Assembly: GCF_018336975.1 (NCBI RefSeq)
Contig: NZ_CP025572.1
Span: 3,020,959-3,084,958 of the forward strand
DNA from: Marinomonas sp. CT5
GTDB lineage: Bacteria > Pseudomonadota > Gammaproteobacteria > Pseudomonadales > Marinomonadaceae
Direction of reading: 5' to 3'
Length of the DNA: 64,000 nucleotides
Shown one piece after another: positions 1-60,919 of the stretch (position 1 is the stretch's first letter; each line of letters starts with the position of its first letter). The notes under the pieces are model-generated. The model was not told the origin of the DNA, ran no database searches, and saw nothing but the letters and a program-made list of their open reading frames with translations. The position numbers and the translations under genes are program-made.

Positions 1-931
1 GATCACTAGGATCACCCACTCTGATTTTGCTAGCGCGCTCAGCGAATTCGGTAGCGAATTTATCGTAAATGCCTTTTTGTACGAAGATACGAGAACCCGC
101 AGTACAGCGCTCGCCATTGATTGAAAAGATACCGAATACAGCCGCATCCATGGCACGCTCGTAGTCACAATCTTCGAAAATCATCACTGGCGATTTACCG
201 CCCAGCTCCATAGAGAATTTTTTAAGACCTGCGTTGGCAATAATGTGTTTACCTGTGGATGTACCACCGGTAAACGAAATGGCATCGACATCATCATTGG
301 TAATGATGGCATTACCGGTTGTCGCACCAAACCCATGTACGATGTTAAACACACCCGGTGGTACACCAGCTTCAATAGACAAGCGACCTAAAAAATCAGT
401 CGTTAGCGGTGACAACTCAGACTGTTTCATCACCACAGTGTTACCCAAGGCTAACGCTGGAGCCGTTTTCCATGTACCCGTCATGAAAGGTACGTTCCAT
501 GGAGAAATTAGCGCACACACCCCCGTTGGTTGATACAAGGTGTAGTTCAACATTTGGTCATCCACTGGGTAGGTATGACCATTCATTTGTCTTGATTTCT
601 CAGCAAAGAAATAAAAGTTATTGGATGAACGAGGAATCAAGGCATTCAATGTTTGATACAGCGGCAAACCTGTATCGGCCGTTTCAAGACGGGCGATTTC
701 GTCCACATTCTCAGCGATTAGGTCACCCAATTTTTCGATAATTTTAGAGCGCTTTGCTATCGGCATCGCCGCCCATGCTGGAAAAGCGTCTTTTGCGGCT
801 TGGACCGCTTCAGCCACCTGTTCATCGGATGCGTGAGCCACTTCAGCTAATACTTCGCCTGTGGCTGGATTAACAGTCTGAAAAGTCTCTTTGCTCTCAA
901 CCCATTTGCCGTTTATCAAGTTCTTAATCAT
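1..931 (-). CDS. hpaE: 5-carboxymethyl-2-hydroxymuconate semialdehyde dehydrogenase (partial)
   Basis: NAD-dependent aldehyde dehydrogenase of the homoprotocatechuate meta pathway; it oxidises the semialdehyde made by ring cleavage. The reverse strand opens with ATG at 931 and stays open to the window edge (310 codons of about 485). It begins MIKNLINGKWVESKETFQTV and then shows the family blocks ETADTGLP, FFAEKSRQMNGHTYPVDD, SPWNVPFM, SFTGGTSTGK, MELGGKSP and the catalytic-Cys segment INGERCTAGSRIFVQ. These match what I recall of E. coli HpaE closely. The C-terminus is outside the window. The gene is divergent from the LuxR gene, and an HpaR-like palindrome at 983-1002 lies in its promoter region. 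hpaD and hpaF probably follow it beyond position 1. Confidence 0.93.
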   Translation of the reverse strand, partial: MIKNLINGKWVESKETFQTVNPATGEVLAEVAHASDEQVAEAVQAAKDAFPAWAAMPIAKRSKIIEKLGDLIAENVDEIARLETADTGLPLYQTLNALIPRSSNNFYFFAEKSRQMNGHTYPVDDQMLNYTLYQPTGVCALISPWNVPFMTGTWKTAPALALGNTVVMKQSELSPLTTDFLGRLSIEAGVPPGVFNIVHGFGATTGNAIITNDDVDAISFTGGTSTGKHIIANAGLKKFSMELGGKSPVMIFEDCDYERAMDAAVFGIFSINGERCTAGSRIFVQKGIYDKFATEFAERASKIRVGDPSD

Positions 932-982
932 TTTTCTTCTCTCTTCTGATAAGGAACCGAACGAGAATGTCTCGACATCGAT

Positions 983-7963: not shown

Positions 7964-9082
7964 TTAGTCATCAATATGAGCAATACTATTTAGAAGATAA
8001 CTCTGAACGTTCGCCAATCTAACCTCTATGTCTTTGATATTTCGATTCATTGTATTGATCAAAGATTCTGCATTTGCCTGATCATGTCGGGGGATTTCAT
8101 GGAGCAGCTTTTGTCCCGACTCAAACAAAGAAAACAGTGGTGTGCGTATCGTTTTAAAGCTTTCTTCACTACGATAACCAAAATCATCGTCTTCCCCATG
8201 CAAATACCAATCAGCAAAAGCCGTTTTAGAAAGGTCTAACTCATCTTGACTAACCTTCTCTTCGTTTAGCCAGCATGATACCCAAGCATTTTTGCTATTC
8301 ACTAATTCAAGCAAAGACGATGAAGTATGACCATAAAGCATCGCTTTATAAGCGGAAGAAATAATGTGCTCCGATGATTGACTGGTTTCACTTAAGCTTA
8401 ATTGGATATTTAAAGAGTGATCATGATGTGAAGTAATTTCTTCGTTTAAAGCCTTAATACGTCGATCCACTTCGGCAGTGGTGGTTTGAATGCGCTGCAC
8501 CAATGTCGAAATCTCATCACTGGATTCTCGCGCTCGACTGGCGAGTCCTCTGACTTCATCCGCCACCACAGCAAAGCCTCGTCCATGCTCACCAGCACGA
8601 GCCGCTTCAATAGCCGCATTCAGCGCTAACAAATTCGTTTGCTCAGAGATTTTATTAATGACTTCTGCAAAACCATCTATCTCAGCGGCCAAACTCCTAA
8701 GAGTAAGTACTTCAGACAAACTTTTTTTTGCGTCTTCCGACATAAGCTTGGTGGCATCACAAAGCTTTTTCAGTTCTAGATTGCTTTTTAGGTTTTCGCT
8801 TTTTACCTCTTCAACCTTACTCATTGGCTCAAATAGCTCTTCAGACACTAAATTCACTATCCGAGAAATGGGCACTAAATCCCCACTTATTCCACTGACT
8901 AAATTATTTGTAAAACTAGAATCAGATGAGTTTTTTTTCAGTAACGATAATTCTTCTTCCAATAAAGCTATCTGTTGGTCTTGTCCGTCTACCTGAGACT
9001 GAAGTTGCTGATTTTGGCTTTCTAATAAGGCAATAACGTTTTTTTGTTCTTCGAATTTCTGCGTTCGTTTCGTACCAAACAT
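7964..9082 (-). CDS. Soluble methyl-accepting chemotaxis protein with degenerate CZB-like C-terminus
   Basis: 372-residue chemoreceptor without membrane segments. An N-terminal coiled coil (about residues 8-50, [20 protein letters not shown]) is followed by the signalling hairpin (about 110-215) with the highly conserved tip [20 protein letters not shown] and [15 protein letters not shown]. The C-terminal 110 residues have the size and aromatic pattern of the CZB zinc-binding domain. However, the usual Cys in the CxxGxW block reads T-A-F-A-D-W and the paired His residues are missing. Convergent with the upstream MFS gene; it may link chemotaxis to the catabolic locus. Confidence 0.85.
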
Positions 9083-45453: not shown

Positions 45454-45966
45454 TTAAAAGTACATCTGATAACTCTTGCGACGAGCAAAGAAATAAATGG
45501 TTTCAAATACTTTTGAAGCTATCGTATTGTTCTTATGCTTTAAATTAAGCCACGGAAAAATCGAACGGACGGGCTTAACATCTCGAATCATCGAGTCTAT
45601 ATGTTTCTTACTAAATGAATCTCTTGCGCCGTCATCAGGTTGCCAAAGAACACCATTCCTATTCTTGTGCTCGATGAAATATCCGATCACCGCGACAATC
45701 AACTTGGTATAACCGACTCGCGCTGACTTTTCCCAGTTCACTTCTTCAATGTCTGGGTGGCCCATCGCGTTTAAAATCGCAACTTGATAGGGACGGGTTG
45801 TCCACTTGCCTTTGATATAGCTTGATTCGGCGGAGAGATAGAAATACTTATCTGCCCATTCAACCGCTGTAAGCGGCTCTTTCATTTTGAGAAAGCTTAA
45901 AGCGCGGCTGATTGCCTCACTTAACTTTCCCTTCTGCGACTGAGACAAGACTAGCAATTGTGTCAT
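45454..45966 (-). pseudogene. Phage terminase large subunit (GpA type), C-terminally truncated
   Basis: Only the first 170 residues of a roughly 600-residue packaging ATPase remain. PLTAVEWADKYFYLSAESSY, GKWTTRPYQVAILNAMGHPD and EVNWEKSARVGYTKLIVAVI (the Walker-A-like region of GpA terminases) are present. After SIFPWLNLKHKNNTIASKV the family sequence is lost and the frame stops next to the Phd antitoxin promoter. It overlaps the small-subunit gene by 50 bp. The loss of the nuclease domain and all head genes shows a deletion. Confidence 0.8.
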
Positions 45967-49896: not shown

Positions 49897-50084
49897 CTAC
49901 AAAACCACTTCACCCGCCAATCTCTCCACAGCCTCGACCATCAGCGGCCAAGCGTACTCGCTTTCATAGCGGCCTTCTAAATTGCCACGCGAGTGATTAA
50001 GCAGCATTTTACGGACAGTACTATCCACCCCGCTTTGCATCCAATAATCGTTCGCCAACTTACGCATACTATGAGACGAAAAAT
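49897..50084 (-). pseudogene. C-terminal fragment of a tyrosine integrase
   Basis: About 62 codons encode SMRKLANDYWMQSGVDSTVR, KMLLNHSRGNLEGRYESEYA and a VVL ending. They include the HxxR, H and nucleophile Tyr blocks and are nearly identical to the end of the integrase at 51730-52882. Homology stops abruptly at about 50084. This is a second integrase copy cut to its last third, indicating recombination between two related elements. Confidence 0.85.
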
Positions 50085-51729: not shown

Positions 51730-52882
51730 TCAACCAAAAACCTCACCCGCCAATCTCTCCACAGCCTCGACCATCAGCGGCCAAGCGTATTCGCTTTCAT
51801 AGCGGCCTTCTAAATTGCCGCGCGAGTGATTGAGCAACATTTTCCTGACCGTACTATCAACACCGCTTTGCATCCAATAGTCGTTAGCCAGCTTACGCAT
51901 ATCATGGGACGTAAAATACACATCCATGCCGCTACGCAACGCCTTATACCAATCTCGCCCCGTCTTGGACGTGATCGGCCTTTTACCGCACCGACTAAAA
52001 ACGAAATCCCCTTGTCGCCTTGCTTTTGCTTGCCGCAACATATCAACCACTTTAGGCGCTAAGGGTGTACGCAGCTCCACGCCTGTCTTTGTGTCCTCAG
52101 CGGGGATAACCCACTCACCACGATCTAAATATAAATTCGCCCACTTCGCCAAACACGTCTCTTCAATCCGTGTGCCTTGGCACAGCTGCAGCGTAAAAAA
52201 CAAACGTCGATTAAATTGCGCATTGCTAATCTCCTTAACAACCGCCGCCAAATCATCCACCTTCAGACGTCCAGATTTTGGCCGCTCTTTTGATGTCGAG
52301 AAACTTTTCCAACCCACCCCCGCCAACGGATCAGCCGCGATCACCTCCAGCTTAGCCGCCAACGAACAGGCGCGCTTCAAGACCCCCCCAAGTCGTACGC
52401 ATAGACGAAAGCGCCAGCACATTCATCTTCTCTTTGTAGAATCGCGTATAAACAACATGGCGAGTCAACCCACGAACAGGCACCCCCTCAAAACACCCCA
52501 TCAAATGGGTATGAATTAAATGATAGGCGTTTTCTACATAACGAGGGCTAAACGTCTTATCACTCTCAATATGGCCCACAAACCACAATAAAAGCGCCCC
52601 GCAATCTGTCACCGTGTCAAACTTCTTCCCCGATCGCTCCCCCGCCATCACCTGGGCGCGAATCTCTGACAAACGCTTAAACAAATCGGATGCTTTCAGC
52701 GCTGGCCACTTACCCAAAGGCGTGCGAATCTTACGCTTACCCTTATACACCACATCGTAAAACGTGCCACTGGTGCGGGATGGATTGGCACGAAACTCCA
52801 CTCGACGCGAGTCATAACACCACTCTTTGTCACTCGTTGCCAAAAACTGCTTAATAGACGTATCAGTAATGCGTTTAGTCAT
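51730..52882 (-). pseudogene. Phage tyrosine integrase, frameshifted in a G7 tract
   Basis: The first frame (from ATG 52882) gives the N-terminal SAM-like half, MTKRITDTSIKQFLATSDKE to SSMRTTWGG. The second frame gives the catalytic domain with LCQGTRIEE (Arg), FTSHDMRKLAND (HxxR), LLNHSRGNLE (His) and RYESEY (Tyr). The frames join if one base is removed from seven C at 52383-52389. Without that the protein stops early. It may be a real mutation, a slippery tract or a sequencing error. Confidence 0.88.
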
Positions 52883-53381
52883 CCGCGCGCATCTCCATCT
52901 CAGCAACCAAACGCTCAATAAATGCCGCCTTGCCGCGCGACAAATGAACCGAATAATTAACAGGAGACAGACGCTTTAAAGGAGGCTGCATCCGTAACTC
53001 TGCAGCATAACGACGAATAGAAGCCGCGATAGACGTATTCAGCGGAGACATTCCCCGCTCATCTTTACGACCTTCCGCAAGAACCGAAGCAAACAAACAC
53101 AAGCGCTGCATAGGGGACAGAGAATCAAACAAATAGCCAAAGCCACTTTCTTTCGTCGTCAGCTGCTCAATAGCCTTAATCATCTTAGCGTTAGATTCAC
53201 CGCCGCCGCCAAACTCTGGCACAATGCCACTCTGCAGCATGTCGCAAACCTTGCCAGTATTACTAACACCCGCCCAACCCGCATCGGCTGAGGTACTAAT
53301 CAGCGTATCAATGTGTTTATTAACGATCATCCAAGACAACCAACCCAAAGAGCCGACCTTATCTGAATCTTTCCAGCGCAT
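52875..53381 (-). CDS. Hypothetical phage protein upstream of integrase
   Basis: 168 residues, MRWKDSDKVGSLGWLSWMIV, a Gly-rich loop (PEFGGGGESN) and a helical second half (SPMQRLCLFASVLAEGRKDE). It overlaps the integrase start by 8 bp. A regulatory role such as late antiterminator is possible from size and position but no motif proves it. Confidence 0.6.
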   Translation of the reverse strand: MRWKDSDKVGSLGWLSWMIVNKHIDTLISTSADAGWAGVSNTGKVCDMLQSGIVPEFGGGGESNAKMIKAIEQLTTKESGFGYLFDSLSPMQRLCLFASVLAEGRKDERGMSPLNTSIAASIRRYAAELRMQPPLKRLSPVNYSVHLSRGKAAFIERLVAEMEMRADD

Positions 53382-53428
53382 AGCATTTCCCCCACGTCAT
53401 CACGACGTTGATTGTTTGTTTTTAGAAA

Positions 53429-53501
53429 TAATCTGGCGGGACTCGAACCACGCACGCCCCCGATTATTAGTCGGCTGCTCTACCAATTAAGCTACAGATT
53501 A
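53429..53501 (-). tRNA. tRNA-like gene in prophage (anticodon position AAT)
   Basis: 73 bases fold as a cloverleaf: 7-bp acceptor TAATCTG/CAGATTA, D arm GCTT...GAGC, anticodon arm CCGA/TCGG with loop CTAATAA, and a T arm GCG-T-GG/CCCGC with TTCGAGT. The T stem has an extra base and no CCA is encoded. AAT at the anticodon position would read an Ile codon. It may be a decayed phage tRNA. Confidence 0.5.
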
Positions 53502-53544
53502 CTTTTAAAAACAGGCTGGCTAACCAGCCTAGAAAAAGACTCAT

Positions 53545-56684: not shown

Positions 56685-57761
56685 TCACATCCAATCCGTA
56701 TCGTGAATGTCGCTCAACGCATCGTTAACACCTTGGCGGTTATCGTGAACGATCGCTGGCGGTTGTGAGCCGCCAAAGCCTTGTGTTCGTCGAATCGTCG
56801 GCAATTCCTCGTCGTTCCAGCGTTCGTTGTTGATCCACGTTGCCGGGTGCGGTTGATATTGCTTCTGGTCGGCGGGTGCCGAGGCGTACAGATCCCCCCA
56901 AAGCCCAGCTTGATCAATGATGTTTTGTAAAAACTCACGCGCCGTAAATCGAGCCTGTTTAAGGTGATCGAGCATATCCCTCTTGCTCAAGTACCTTTTC
57001 TTCAAATCGCAAGACTTTGGGAAATTAATTTTCAAAAATGCCTTTTCAGCCGTCTTTCGCCCCGTCTTTTTTTGATATGCAAACCAAAAGTACTCAAACG
57101 CCTCGGTTAGCATTTTGTTTTTTTCAGTCACATCAAATGAAACAGAATCATCGATCACGGCTAACTCGTTCGATTCGCCAGAATCGGACAAGAGATCTAA
57201 GTTCTTAGTCTCTGTAGAAGTCTTTGTAGTAATCTCTGTATACGTCCCCCGTTCCAACGTAGGTGCCCCTACATCTTCACGTGGGGTATCCTCCGAATTT
57301 TCGGAGGAGGTGTTACAGTTGGGCGAAACACCATCATCAACAATCGGAAACGTAATACGGTCAATTTCGACAGCGACTGGCTCGATGAAAAGAATGTTTG
57401 ATAGGTGATTGCCGCCAACAGTCTTGGAGCGCAGCTCAAGAGTGATTAAACCCGCATCACGTAAGCGCTTGAGGGAATCTTGAACTTCACGCTTAGTCAT
57501 ACCAAAATCATCAGCAAACGATTGATAAGAGCGCTGTAATTTATCGTCTGAAAACTTCTTTCGATGCCCAATAACTTGCCCCGTGTGTTCATCACGAATT
57601 TCAGTCGGGCGATACCAATAGAGGATCTCAGACAGCAACGTAATGGCCTTATGATCAGGACGACCAGAAGGCAAAGAAATCTGCTTGTACCAGATTTTAG
57701 GTGTCACATTACCAGTGAAACCAAGGCGACCAATGGCCGCCACAGTTTGGGTGATACTCAT
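56685..57761 (-). CDS. Phage replication protein with N-terminal winged helix
   Basis: 358 residues. The N-terminal region (SGRPDHKAITLLSEILYWYR, SYQSFADDFGMTKREVQDSL, KRLRDAGLITLEL) is a replication-initiator-type winged helix. A variable linker rich in Glu, Thr and Ser (about 150-210) leads to a C-terminal helical domain (EAFEYFWFAYQKKTGRKTAE). This is the plan of lambda O/DnaD-like phage replication proteins. The start overlaps the stop of the Zn-finger gene (ATGA). Confidence 0.75.
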   Translation of the reverse strand: MSITQTVAAIGRLGFTGNVTPKIWYKQISLPSGRPDHKAITLLSEILYWYRPTEIRDEHTGQVIGHRKKFSDDKLQRSYQSFADDFGMTKREVQDSLKRLRDAGLITLELRSKTVGGNHLSNILFIEPVAVEIDRITFPIVDDGVSPNCNTSSENSEDTPREDVGAPTLERGTYTEITTKTSTETKNLDLLSDSGESNELAVIDDSVSFDVTEKNKMLTEAFEYFWFAYQKKTGRKTAEKAFLKINFPKSCDLKKRYLSKRDMLDHLKQARFTAREFLQNIIDQAGLWGDLYASAPADQKQYQPHPATWINNERWNDEELPTIRRTQGFGGSQPPAIVHDNRQGVNDALSDIHDTDWM

Positions 57762-58266: not shown

Positions 58267-58958
58267 GCCTCACCCCCAATTCTCAGCTGCTTTTCTTGCT
58301 GATCAGTGGTGGCGACATTAAGTGATGCATTCTTCCCGTGAGCGCCGCCAAGAGTTAAACAATCAAAATCAAGGCCACGATTACCAGAAGACTTCGTGTC
58401 CTTAATTTTTGAAGGCTCTACACCTTCTAGTTTCTTGGCTTTGTGCTTAACAACCTCTTCAGGCTTATCGCGCTCACCAAAGACATTAACCAATTTTCGG
58501 CAAGCTGAAACAATCCAGCCCTTGCAATACAAGTCTGCTTGCTGCGCATTACCGCCATATGTTTTTTGAAACTCTTTACGGGCTTTTTCTAATTGAGGAT
58601 AAATCACATCAAAGGAATAAGCGGCCAATTCTGCATCACGCTCCAAGCCGATAAATTCAACATAAGAGTCCCAAACGATACGACCACCATATATGCGCGG
58701 TCGTGTCCCATGCAAAGCATAAACGCCCGAAATTTCCATAATGGCCGAAACCAAAATATGTTCGTATTCCTTGATAGTTTTACGCTTAATTGGTCGCGAA
58801 TACGTTGAAATGATATCCAGCTCATCAACATCGATACGGTACTTTTTCATCAGCGACATAGCTTGACGTTTTGCGGTTTCCGCTTCGTGTGGATTATCGG
58901 ATTGAGACAAAGCTAAAAGCTTGCGGATTTTTGCTTGATAACGGCTATCCATACTCAT
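58263..58958 (-). CDS. DUF2786 protein
   Basis: 231 residues. The N-terminal DUF2786 block (KIRKLLALSQSDNPHEAETA, KRQAMSLMKKYRID) is followed by a second conserved region with HILVSAIMEISGVYALHGTR and LERDAELAAYSFDVIYPQLE. Phages and their hosts carry it; function unknown, possibly DNA-linked. The ATG at 58958 overlaps the upstream stop by four bases. Confidence 0.78.
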   Translation of the reverse strand: MSMDSRYQAKIRKLLALSQSDNPHEAETAKRQAMSLMKKYRIDVDELDIISTYSRPIKRKTIKEYEHILVSAIMEISGVYALHGTRPRIYGGRIVWDSYVEFIGLERDAELAAYSFDVIYPQLEKARKEFQKTYGGNAQQADLYCKGWIVSACRKLVNVFGERDKPEEVVKHKAKKLEGVEPSKIKDTKSSGNRGLDFDCLTLGGAHGKNASLNVATTDQQEKQLRIGGEA

Positions 58959-59242
58959 GCCCACACCCCCGCTTTCCCTTTCAATTCAGGATTAAGCAGC
59001 GCGAACACATGCGCCTTGCTGCGACGACCCTTAAACATGCGAGCGATGTACCCCTCGCGTTCAAGCTCTTTAACGCCCTGCTGAACTTTATCAACAGAAA
59101 TCTTGGATAAACTCGAAATTTCGTTAGGATCTAACAAGATGCGTGGCGATTCGCCAAATTTAGGTAGGTGGTATTGAATAGCGCACTGTACGCGTTTGGC
59201 GTAAACAGACAATTGATCAGATTTTTGACGTAACTGTGCCAT
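58955..59242 (-). CDS. Small winged-helix phage protein downstream of ash leader
   Basis: 95 residues, MAQLRQKSDQLSVYAKRVQC then ISSLSKISVDKVQQGVKELE, REGYIARMFKGRRSKAHVFA, a winged-helix motif. ATG at 59242 has AAAGGAG at good spacing. The frame is also open upstream to 59512 and would there encode an ash-like sequence; I take that part as a leader. Confidence 0.65.
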   Translation of the reverse strand: MAQLRQKSDQLSVYAKRVQCAIQYHLPKFGESPRILLDPNEISSLSKISVDKVQQGVKELEREGYIARMFKGRRSKAHVFALLNPELKGKAGVWA

Positions 59243-59512
59243 GGTAAGTCTCCTTTCGTGAAATAGGGACCACCAAATCGAAGTGCGAATTTCAATAGGG
59301 TGGCCAGTCAAGCGGAGTTTCGCACTATCGGCACACGAAAGGAAAACCGACCTACCCGAAGGTAGCTCCGCCCAACTGACCATAACAGGCAGGCACAGGC
59401 GTGCAGACATAAAAAAACCGCTTAAATGGGCGGTTAGTCTGCCCTTTCGTGAATGTTCCAGAGTGCGAGTCCGGGTTACTGATTTTGCAGTAACGGTTAA
59501 ATTATTAATCAT
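59243..59512 (-). CDS. Ash-family open frame overlapping a P4-like RNA immunity leader
   Basis: The reverse frame encodes GFFMSARLCLPVMVSWAELP and flanking residues that resemble the Ash family of P4-like phages and prophages. It is in frame with the downstream winged-helix gene without a stop. Conservation of this family may reflect the RNA structure beneath it rather than the peptide, so I give the coding call limited weight. Confidence 0.45.
59252..59468 (-). ncRNA. Candidate P4-type CI immunity RNA region (seqA-seqB-seqC)
   Basis: A composite motif CCTTTCGTG + AGTGCGA occurs three times: top strand at 59252-59293, inverted at 59320-59342 and top strand at 59443-59468. In the leftward transcript the middle copy is therefore complementary to the outer two, as seqB is to seqA and seqC in phage P4. 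A hairpin CTACC-CGAA-GGTAG (59352-59365) and a terminator (59411-59434) lie between copies. By analogy a small RNA from the middle would force early termination. Confidence 0.55.
59411..59434 (-). terminator. Leftward leader terminator beside seqA-like copy
   Basis: On the reverse strand ACCGC, an eight-base loop, GCGGT and seven T. It lies nine bases past the outer repeat copy, in the place of the P4 leader terminator. Confidence 0.75.
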
Positions 59513-59585
59513 TGCTCTGTACCTGTCAAATCAGATAAACAGAACATCGTGGACATCTTGTCCTAAAAACCTCTTGTTTCGATAT

Positions 59586-59915
59586 TCAGTGTAAAGTTTT
59601 AGTGTTGGCGCGCTTTTCAACGTCCGCCACCAGTTTAGAAAACTCCGCATCATCAAACGCCAAAAAAGCCCGCTCTGCTACAAACGCAACAGGCGGGAAA
59701 TAAGGGCAATCAATCACAGCGGAATAAAGGGGCAACGCACCACGATCAGCACGACGCACCACAAAACCCAAATCCATCAATTTAAAAATCGATTTTCGGA
59801 CATTGCGCTTGGGTGACTCAGACAACGCGCTTATGGTCGGGATAGATAACGCCCTATTGGATTTGAATAAAATCCCCATAATCGTATGGTCTAATGTGTT
59901 AAGCTGACTAGACAT
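59586..59915 (-). CDS. Winged-helix phage early protein
   Basis: 109 residues. LDHTIMGILFKSNRALSIPT, ISALSESPKRNVRKSIFKLM, DLGFVVRRADRGALPLYSAV form a MarR/ROK-like winged helix with a short acidic helical tail. AGGAGGGGTT precedes the ATG. It is the first gene of the leftward side, divergent from the double-HTH regulator, so a Cro-like role is plausible. Confidence 0.68.
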   Translation of the reverse strand: MSSQLNTLDHTIMGILFKSNRALSIPTISALSESPKRNVRKSIFKLMDLGFVVRRADRGALPLYSAVIDCPYFPPVAFVAERAFLAFDDAEFSKLVADVEKRANTKTLH

Positions 59916-60136
59916 AACCCCTCCTAGATGCCTCGCGGTGGCGCTTCACAGCGGGAGCAAGGCAAAAATATTGACGGTTGATAATTATTAATCATTTCCA
60001 AACCGTCACATCTTGAATAGATTATTAACAGAGATATGTTTTTAGTCAATATTGATTTTATTTTATATTCGATTTGATTACTTGGCGTTTCCTATAATCG
60101 ACTTATATCAATGTTTTCAGGAAAGATTTACTAATC
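59916..60136. promoter_or_regulatory. Divergent phage control region
   Basis: 221 bp between the leftward early gene and the rightward regulator. AT-rich, with a good -10 (TATAAT, 60093-60098) toward the regulator and repeated TTGATTT/TCGATTTGATT segments that may be operators. The half-sites are too weak to define a consensus by eye. Confidence 0.5.
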
Positions 60137-60919
60137 ATGGCAAGAAAAAAGCTCGATGAAAGTGCGCCAGCGCCAACCATTGCCGCCGCACCGGAAGAAA
60201 AAAGCAGCACAGCAAAGGCTTGCGCTTTAGCGATGCAGCGCGTCATTGGCGCGTCTCGTTACGATATGAGCGACATAGCCTCTTACCTTGGCCTTTCCAC
60301 TCAAACACTAAGCAACCGAATGCGTGGCATTACGTCATTTTCTCTCGAAGAAGCTTTGATGATCTGCAAGCTAGTCGACATCTCTCTAGAAGATGCCATG
60401 AAAATAGCAGGCATGACGCAAGAAGAATTCGAAAACGCATGGATATATCAATGGCGCAGACAAAACTTTGCAAAACACGTCGCGCATTTAGAAGCCGATA
60501 AGAAAATGCCGCGTTACAAAATAGCCGAAATGTGCGATTACAGCGAAAGCTGGATAAGTCGAGTGCTAAGCGGAGACGCTAAACTCACCCCTCGCGCCGC
60601 TCGCATAATTGAAAAAAGAATGGATCTGCCAGAAGAATGGCTAGACAGAAAACCACTCTCAGCGCCCAAAGGCACACAAATTAATTTCGACACCATTGTG
60701 AAGACCAGTCACCAGATTATTGCCGCAATAAAACAAGCGGGGTTTGACGTAGATTCGGATTTAATCGCTCCTTTCATCACAGCCGTGACACAGCTATATA
60801 ACGCAAAAATGGCCATACGCGAAGGCTACGACCCCGAGACCGATGCCGCACAATTTCAAGCGATTATTGAGCAGCTGATCATGCAGTTAAAAATGAAAGA
60901 TGGTGCGTGGAAACATTAA
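60137..60919 (+). CDS. Phage regulator with two helix-turn-helix domains
   Basis: 260 residues. HTH 1 at about 35-85 (RYDMSDIASYLGLSTQTLSN, RMRGITSFSLEEALMICKLV) and HTH 2 at about 118-165 (MPRYKIAEMCDYSESWISRV, LSGDAKLTPRAARIIEKRMD). The C-terminal 80 residues are helical and lack the Ser-Lys autocleavage protease of LexA/CI repressors. It occupies the repressor position, divergent from the early operon. Without self-cleavage, induction would need another signal or the RNA system. Confidence 0.72.
   Translation: MARKKLDESAPAPTIAAAPEEKSSTAKACALAMQRVIGASRYDMSDIASYLGLSTQTLSNRMRGITSFSLEEALMICKLVDISLEDAMKIAGMTQEEFENAWIYQWRRQNFAKHVAHLEADKKMPRYKIAEMCDYSESWISRVLSGDAKLTPRAARIIEKRMDLPEEWLDRKPLSAPKGTQINFDTIVKTSHQIIAAIKQAGFDVDSDLIAPFITAVTQLYNAKMAIREGYDPETDAAQFQAIIEQLIMQLKMKDGAWKH

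Follow-up and report, generated by a model that had tools for sequence, protein, structure and literature searches.

The window, by which we mean the whole stretch of DNA analysed, comprises 64,000 nt of the Marinomonas sp. CT5 genome (NZ_CP025572.1, positions 3,020,959 to 3,084,958), and all coordinates given below are positions within it. On its minus strand, an RNA module with its leader heads the replication operon of a prophage, in keeping with the first-pass annotation, which had placed it at the head of the prophage early operon. Downstream of the module are genes for a DUF2786 protein, an O-like replication initiation protein (56685..57761, minus strand; phrog_270, E 8.6e-37), a PAPS-reductase-like protein and a protein with a weak P-like match. 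No antirepressor family, the mark of a P1 immI locus, was found among the operon proteins scanned. Then come small ORFs of the lysis-region kind (judged by eye; unknown in PHROGs), a small terminase gene and only the N-terminal part of a large terminase gene (45454..45966, minus strand; phrog_15/phrog_4145), which encodes 170 aa in the window versus 686 aa in a relative. The main integrase gene at 51730-52918 appears, by eye, as two overlapping frames. The window copy is, by its sequence, a truncated prophage, and since the terminase is truncated and the integrase frame looks split, the module may be inactive in this prophage. A tRNA-Ile gene (anticodon AAT; 53427-53502, minus strand) lies inside the prophage operon, and a 178-bp direct repeat (90%) of the 3' part of the integrase gene is found at 49907-50084 and 51740-51917.

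Upstream of the leader lies a 109-aa ORF (59586..59915, minus strand) with sub-threshold winged-helix matches, in the position that ORF88 occupies in P4. To the right of the module, the separate double-HTH regulator that had been named at first pass was confirmed as a divergent gene (60137..60919, plus strand); its only Pfam matches are of the HTH type, with no peptidase domain, and it has no match in 50,697 phage records (E limit 0.001). Also on this side are an SSB gene and a second integrase gene beside host uvrB (uvrB assigned by eye).

Six relatives of the prophage were compared with the window. The divergent regulator, the P-like gene and a 95-aa gene that directly follows the RNA are kept in 6/6 relatives and repO in 5/6, and the 109-aa ORF (by tblastn) and the DUF2786 gene were found in three of the six each. 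The relative G035:C21 carries on the same contig terminase, portal, protease, major head, tail and tape-measure genes, with head and tail of the siphovirus type; ORFs like these late genes are visible by eye in a second relative, G043:C20. The status of a P4-like satellite or a PICI was considered and rejected, because G035:C21 carries capsid and tail genes. In none of the seven genomes (the window's and those of the six relatives) did a search for S24 peptidases (E 0.01) turn up a match near the module, so that the claim that no cleavable repressor is involved stands in the form that no S24-type, self-cleaving repressor lies near the module. Where the contig of the module does carry an S24 match, the nearest one lies far off: at ~77 kb and well beyond the prophage in the window's genome, and at more than 200 kb in G008 and G024. 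The remaining four genomes have none on the contig of the module; the contigs differ in length, and one of these genomes, G041, is 77% complete, so that a stretch may be missing there.

The module had been recognized from a two-part motif said to occur three times in 217 bp with its middle copy inverted, and we found all copies to be exact and the span to be 217 bp. In plus-strand coordinates, copy 1 lies at 59252-59260 and 59282-59288 and copy 3, inside an isrK-like element, at 59443-59451 and 59462-59468; the inverted middle copy is read on the minus strand at 59342-59334 and 59326-59320. This two-part pattern occurs three times in the 4.76 Mb genome, always at this locus, and not once in the reversed control. 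The terminator reported next to the outermost copy was found as a terminator-like hairpin with a T run at 59435-59416 (minus strand), adjoining copy 3, and the small hairpin reported beside the middle copy was found at 59365-59352. Since the terminator scan gave three terminator-like sites in 1 kb versus 1.2 in shuffles, it is weak when taken alone.

Judged by its match to Rfam, the middle copy is the loop of the 87-position C4 RNA, which refines the earlier description of it. The C4/CI antisense RNA at 59296..59387 (minus strand) matches RF01695 with 61.4 bits (E 4.2e-10), against a curated cut-off of 45, over model positions 1-87 of 87. Its loop (59320..59342, minus strand) carries the recognition segments CCUUUCGUG (59342-59334) and AGUGCGA (59326-59320), both complementary to flanking targets. 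A GGU at 59381-59379 fits the GGW motif described for RNase P processing of C4 RNAs in an excerpt of PMC5320573. On known phages, among them P4 and P1, which remain dormant by means of RNAs of this type, the same model scored 74.9 bits for P4 CI, 69.0 for Gifsy-1 and 68.8 for P1 C4, and the isrK model matched the P4 seqA region with 60.8 bits. The covariance search against the P4 CI region that had been proposed as a check thus ended with one Rfam C4 model matching both the window and P4 CI, and since this model is common to the window, P4 CI, P1 C4 and the Gifsy-1 RNA, the P4 reading holds. The elements follow the claimed plan of the P4 CI RNA: seqA, terminator, CI RNA and seqC lie in this order behind one consensus-match promoter.

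This promoter is a P_LE-like candidate, TTGACA-17-AATAAT (59501..59529, minus strand), with 11 of 12 consensus matches. A second, upstream candidate of the P_LL-like kind, TTGACT-17-AATAAT (60021..60049, minus strand; 10 of 12 consensus matches), precedes the 109-aa ORF. Both are candidate promoters called purely by consensus match, and the promoter scan gave four promoter-like sites in 1 kb versus 2.1 in shuffles. Because promoter and terminator scans both yielded only about twice the shuffle numbers, they count only alongside other evidence. After the promoter comes an isrK-like leader RNA (59412..59495, minus strand; RF01394), which holds the upstream target (59443..59468, minus strand; seqA or a1b1 type), complementary to both loop segments, and ends in the intrinsic terminator hairpin followed by its T run (59416..59435, minus strand). 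With RF01394, the window scored 46.4 bits and so stayed short of the gathering score of 50, and 5/7 class-A genomes exceeded the cut-off; with the c4-a1b1 model (RF03163), it scored 20.2 bits against a cut-off of 46.7, where P4 itself reached 44.1. On the other side of the C4 RNA lies the downstream target (59251..59288, minus strand; seqC or a2b2 type), whose CACGAAAGGA overlaps the Shine-Dalgarno sequence of the 95-aa gene, with its ATG at 59242.

The leader and the RNA are overlain by a long frame of 185 aa (58955..59512, minus strand), which is eta-like. Its start codon (59512-59510) lies inside the promoter spacer, and it runs in phase into the nested 95-aa gene (58955..59242, minus strand), the first gene after C4, in the kil position. 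As in the nested-frame plan of P4, the long frame would begin upstream of the expected transcript start, which is itself inferred, and it shares its end with the first gene. We followed this arrangement in nine related loci (that of the window, L089-L095 and L098), leaving out L096, L097, L099 and L100 because they are presumably duplicates of elements already in the set. All nine loci retain the spacer ATG, and the long frame is open and in phase in 8/9, the exception being L093, where it is out of phase. The lengths of the leader parts vary between loci, yet their sum is a multiple of three in 8/9. For comparison, dinucleotide-shuffled leaders were open in 1.1-4.8% of cases (mean 2.1%), before any phase requirement. 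Since the nine loci are related, common ancestry also contributes to their open frames and their pairing, and they do not amount to nine independent trials.

We further scanned a set of 50 loci, made up of 47 Marinomonas C4 loci together with those of P4, P1 and Gifsy-1, in which the start of the downstream gene was set by a simple Shine-Dalgarno rule, as it was in the order-wide scan below. At 8/50 loci, namely all seven of class A and that of P4, the downstream gene's frame stays open to more than 90 nt ahead of C4, which it does neither in P1 and Gifsy-1 nor in any of the remaining 40 Marinomonas loci. In the two other frames, an opening of this length occurs at 4 and 2 of the 50 loci. Among those 40 loci, the downstream protein was classified in three, as Rha, KilA-N and KilA-N. 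Across the order, at 30 C4 loci (one per genome), the downstream frame is open past 90 nt in 18/30, some barely, compared with 1 and 7 for the other two frames. Part of this count can be due to chance in GC-rich genomes, and the nested plan is probably not confined to Marinomonas. The idea that the position of the ATG in the spacer leaves the long frame untranslated was dropped, given the P4 eta/kil geometry and the conserved phase. The long frame looks like a part of the switch, as with eta/kil in P4, and not an incidental feature.

The frame had been called 'Ash-like' at first pass, a remark that is fair but, for the window copy, weakly supported. Phage_ASH (PF10554, cut-off 26 bits) gave no match in the frame of the window, even at E 0.1, or in that of the relative L063, but the frame of another relative, L065, reached 23.1 bits. 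The Eta frame of P4 is a strong member of this family, with 82.4 bits. Since a clear Phage_ASH member thus lies over the CI RNA in P4, 'Ash' annotations may mark C4/CI loci. In the P4 record X51522, 'cI' is annotated at 8168-8584 as a 137-aa protein over the CI RNA, and the longer frame is Eta.

The 95-aa protein was modelled with middling confidence (mean pLDDT 71.4), and Foldseek returned nothing for it at E below 0.001; the top two rows were eukaryotic ribosomal chains, and winged-helix regulators followed among other rows. On the basis of these rows and of sub-threshold Pfam matches, we refer to it as a predicted winged-helix protein. Because of this fold, predicted at middling confidence, our guess is that the protein is more likely a regulator than a killer. 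The 95-aa gene has no match in the 50,697 phage records (E limit 0.01), and PHROGs at E 0.01 contained no family for the 185-aa frame, the 95-aa gene or the 109-aa ORF.

At E 0.001, RF01695 gave 47 matches in 22/48 Marinomonas genomes. Across the GTDB order, to which Acinetobacter baumannii also belongs, C4 RNAs were found in 61/381 genomes and 31/138 genera. The Group 1 C4-type sRNAs of A. baumannii are expressed, apparently processed and described as chromosomal, according to an excerpt of PMC5320573 that mentions no nested frame. The segment 59200-59620 had no match in phage records by nucleotide similarity, and across the order it matched 15/390 genomes including its own, the best other match being 73% identical and from the same genus.

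For covariation, we used the 47 Marinomonas C4 loci, which gave 45 distinct loops after two repeats were dropped. Each C4 loop was scored against its own flanks and against all others' flanks by the summed length of collinear complementary stretches. Paired with their own flanks, the loops scored 584 (upstream) and 638 (downstream), whereas no more than 487 and 485 were reached in 10,000 permutations of the 45 loops. Loops and both targets therefore change together across Marinomonas C4 loci. The C4 RNA of the window fits its own flanks best, ranking 1 of 47, with own pairings of 16 and 18 nt, where the 47 loci average 13.0 and 14.2. Poor own pairing was seen in 4/47 loci (L022, L040, L045 and L051), all of them among the 40 less related Marinomonas loci. 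L045 (G000:C1:2119153-2119238) is the second C4 locus of the window's genome; it fits its own flanking targets poorly, shares the AGTGCGAA seed with the C4 RNA of the window, and has flanking targets that resemble, by eye, those of another loop class. At G020:C1:2012989-2014039, two C4 loci (L040 and L020) lie less than 1 kb apart, and the first of them, L040, pairs poorly with its own flanks.

The pairing-energy calculation that had also been proposed gave a concordant result for the window, whose duplexes with the upstream and the downstream target each ranked 1 of 50 flanks in fixed windows. Among the seven class-A loci, the window included, the own duplex ranked first in 2/7 downstream and 4/7 upstream; the remaining downstream duplexes ranked 2, 6, 7, 10 and 27 of 50, and the remaining upstream ones ranked 2 (3/7). 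The upstream target of P4, which lies outside the fixed window, ranked 41 of 50. Because the fixed-window energies performed badly at several downstream targets as well as at the upstream target of P4, we preferred the collinear-match test. None of the nine closest loci keeps the peptide while losing the complementarity, the combination that the first-pass annotation had named as evidence against its reading. The second loop segment is matched over at least 7 nt in both targets in 9/9 of these loci, and the first over at least 6 nt in 9/9 downstream and 8/9 upstream targets, L091 having 5 nt.

The two targets seem to differ in function. In the 50-locus set, the match takes in the anti-Shine-Dalgarno TCC in 27/50 downstream targets (matches of at least 6 nt) versus 4/50 upstream targets, and for this reason the upstream site looks like a termination-side target and the downstream site like a translation block. 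Since the downstream target masks the Shine-Dalgarno sequence, a translation block followed by termination appears more likely than direct termination alone.

A covarying three-way hairpin element lies between the 109-aa ORF and the promoter (59542..59587, minus strand), about 30 nt before the ATG of the long frame. Its stems change together in eight distinct sequences, and its loops are mostly of the AAGAN or ACGAN type. When the arms of the stems were chosen by eye, full pairing of the outer stem was seen in 6/6 distinct versions versus 9/30 mixed pairs, and the second hairpin pairs in 4/4 versus 1/12 mixed. The folding energy of the element is unremarkable in most sequences (z -0.4 to -3.0), so that its support comes from the pairing, and Rfam had no match at 59587-59542. 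A tandem-hairpin descriptor recovered 4/7 known copies; in 45 kb of host sequence it gave a single hit, which looks like a chance match. Three of the sites that it found were new, and all of them mark the beginning of an ORF in the divergent operon of a relative (L064 at 6863, minus strand; L066 at 13739, plus strand; L067 at 7322, minus strand). A similar hairpin site lies in L058 near 930-950 (plus strand). The divergent-operon ORF with hairpins carries NITFYPS or QISFYPS near its N-terminus. At the matching place in the divergent operon of the window prophage and of L065, a single GACAAGATGTC hairpin was noticed by eye. Since the orientation of the hairpins follows transcription in both operons, the AAGAN hairpins are suggested to be RNA control sites, possibly for antitermination or translational control. 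Of all parts of the locus, the hairpin element is understood least and may be the most novel.

Another hairpin, CGCTGTGAAGCG, with a GNRA loop, lies in the leader of the upstream ORF (59953-59942, minus strand). It is identical in 9/9 related loci, and a boxA-like GCTCTTA precedes it in three of them. We considered it as a lambda-type boxB, an assignment that stays tentative because extra copies adjoin ribosome-binding sites in L063, L065 and L098 and because the window holds one copy versus 0.28 expected by chance with one mismatch allowed. At about 60007-59973 (minus strand), an inverted repeat TGACGGTT...AACCGTCA surrounds ATGATTAATAAT, the same 12 bases as in the leader promoter, and the relatives seem, by eye, to have a similar stem of other sequence at this place.

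The closest parallels are with phage P4. The Rfam C4 and isrK models detect P4 CI and seqA, the element order is the same, the downstream target precedes the kil position, and a long frame starts upstream and continues into the next gene. In P4 this frame has 198 aa, with ATGs upstream of seqA, and shares its end with a 65-aa gene in the kil position; P4 eta/kil are said to have been treated by Forti et al. in 1999. ORF88, annotated as a putative DNA-binding protein, likewise lies upstream in P4, and the alpha gene, which has a role in replication, lies downstream. The long frame of the window starts inside the promoter spacer, whereas that of P4 starts well upstream of the early promoter. Unlike in P4, the nested gene encodes a predicted winged-helix protein and a divergent double-HTH regulator is present. 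Moreover, P4 is a satellite with a genome of 11.6 kb, whereas a relative of the window prophage carries siphovirus-type head and tail genes. The names eta, kil and early promoter follow an excerpt of PMC10111431. There it is also reported that relatives of CI and seqA within the eta-like genes of satellites (the PICI 'Bro zone') can be found with C4 and isrK profiles; those RNAs sit in satellites, whereas the window module sits in a phage replication operon.

The C4-icd-ant (immI) locus of P1/P7 likewise has a member of the C4 family, which, in the part of PMC12197685 that treats it, blocks a ribosome-binding site and sets P1/P7 heteroimmunity. There, unlike in the window, C4 controls an antirepressor, and P1 lacks the nested frame. 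The isrK-orf45-anrP locus of Gifsy-1 resembles the window in that isrK and a C4-position RNA are found in a lambdoid prophage, but it lies downstream of gene Q, and its leader is not open in the frame of the gene that follows. It controls anrP/antQ, and IsrK is called a structural homologue of P4 SeqA, both according to an excerpt of PMC4825925. Given the model matches to P4, Gifsy-1 and P1 and the published likeness of IsrK to SeqA and detection of CI/seqA relatives by the C4 and isrK profiles, the P4 analogy is right and the C4/CI RNA family itself is already known. What we describe is known parts in a new setting, a P4/C4 module with the eta/kil nested plan in an unusual carrier.

Taken together, we consider the locus likely to be an RNA immunity module of the P4 type, placed at the head of the replication operon in a family of lambda-like Marinomonas prophages. 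The DNA itself shows to which RNA family the module belongs, where its targets lie and that these covary with the loops, and also that a ribosome-binding site is masked, that the nested frame is conserved and in what operon the module stands. By analogy with P4 and P1, the leader promoter would be on in a lysogen and most transcripts would end early; C4 would be cut out of the read-through transcript and pair with the leader and the ribosome-binding site, the 95-aa gene would stay untranslated, and transcription would then end before the replication genes. From an upstream start, for which 60049-60021 is the candidate, ribosomes would translate the long frame through the leader and hide the targets, and with the targets hidden transcription would continue into the replication genes. 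The loops would act as the key of the immunity group. A more far-reaching version is speculative and, in our view, rather doubtful: a lambda/HK022-P4 hybrid in which the P4-type antisense RNA would keep lysogeny instead of a self-cleaving repressor, a promoter switch would induce, the AAGAN hairpins would be nut/put-like or translational, and translation of the nested frame from the hidden start would render the replication operon immune to C4.

Several other readings of the locus have to be weighed. In one, control would be positive and of the IsrK type, with the leader RNA opening the downstream ribosome-binding site in trans and the C4 complementarity serving mainly mRNA structure. The likeness of the leader to the isrK model in the window and in five of the seven class-A genomes fits this, the long leader RNA also folds with the target and the C4 loop paired internally, and IsrK raised anrP translation in Gifsy-1, according to an excerpt of PMC4825925. 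Yet the C4 fold lies well over its own cut-off, and the covariation of both flanks with the loop is directly predicted by the C4 repressor model and so counts against positive control, which we regard as improbable. The same excerpt reports a processed RNA from the C4 position of Gifsy-1 as well, STnc1160, so that the IsrK and C4 models are not exclusive.

We give equally little credence to a decayed remnant, that is, a former immunity module in a dead prophage that would be neither transcribed nor functional; the shortened terminase and the apparently split integrase with its repeated 3' part at 49907-50084 speak for decay, but the promoter-like site, the C4 fold and both pairings are intact. 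The long frame, finally, could be a functionless artefact of translating an RNA gene, like the 137-aa cI product annotated over the RNA in the P4 record. Its leader peptide is indeed poorly conserved, and conserved residues fall, by eye, on RNA elements such as the T run of the terminator. Against this, the leaders of all but one of the nine related loci are open and in phase despite the differing lengths of their parts, the spacer ATG is kept throughout, and translation of P4 eta is reported to override termination in an excerpt of PMC10111431, so we hold an artefact to be unlikely. The P4-type immunity module remains our preferred reading.

In the open-licence literature, searched mostly by listings, we found no report of a C4 module at the head of the replication operon of a lambda-like phage. 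C4/CI RNAs have been known in satellites, guarding the satellite itself, and in P1-like phages, guarding an antirepressor. In the present case the module stands before the replication genes of lambda-like prophages, and no S24 repressor was found in its vicinity; the relatives suggest a family of lambda-like phages wired with a P4-type module. If the module works as we propose, two short loop sequences would suffice to tell the immunity group of such a phage, and for the 45 distinct loops of one genus the outcomes of superinfection would be predictable and testable.
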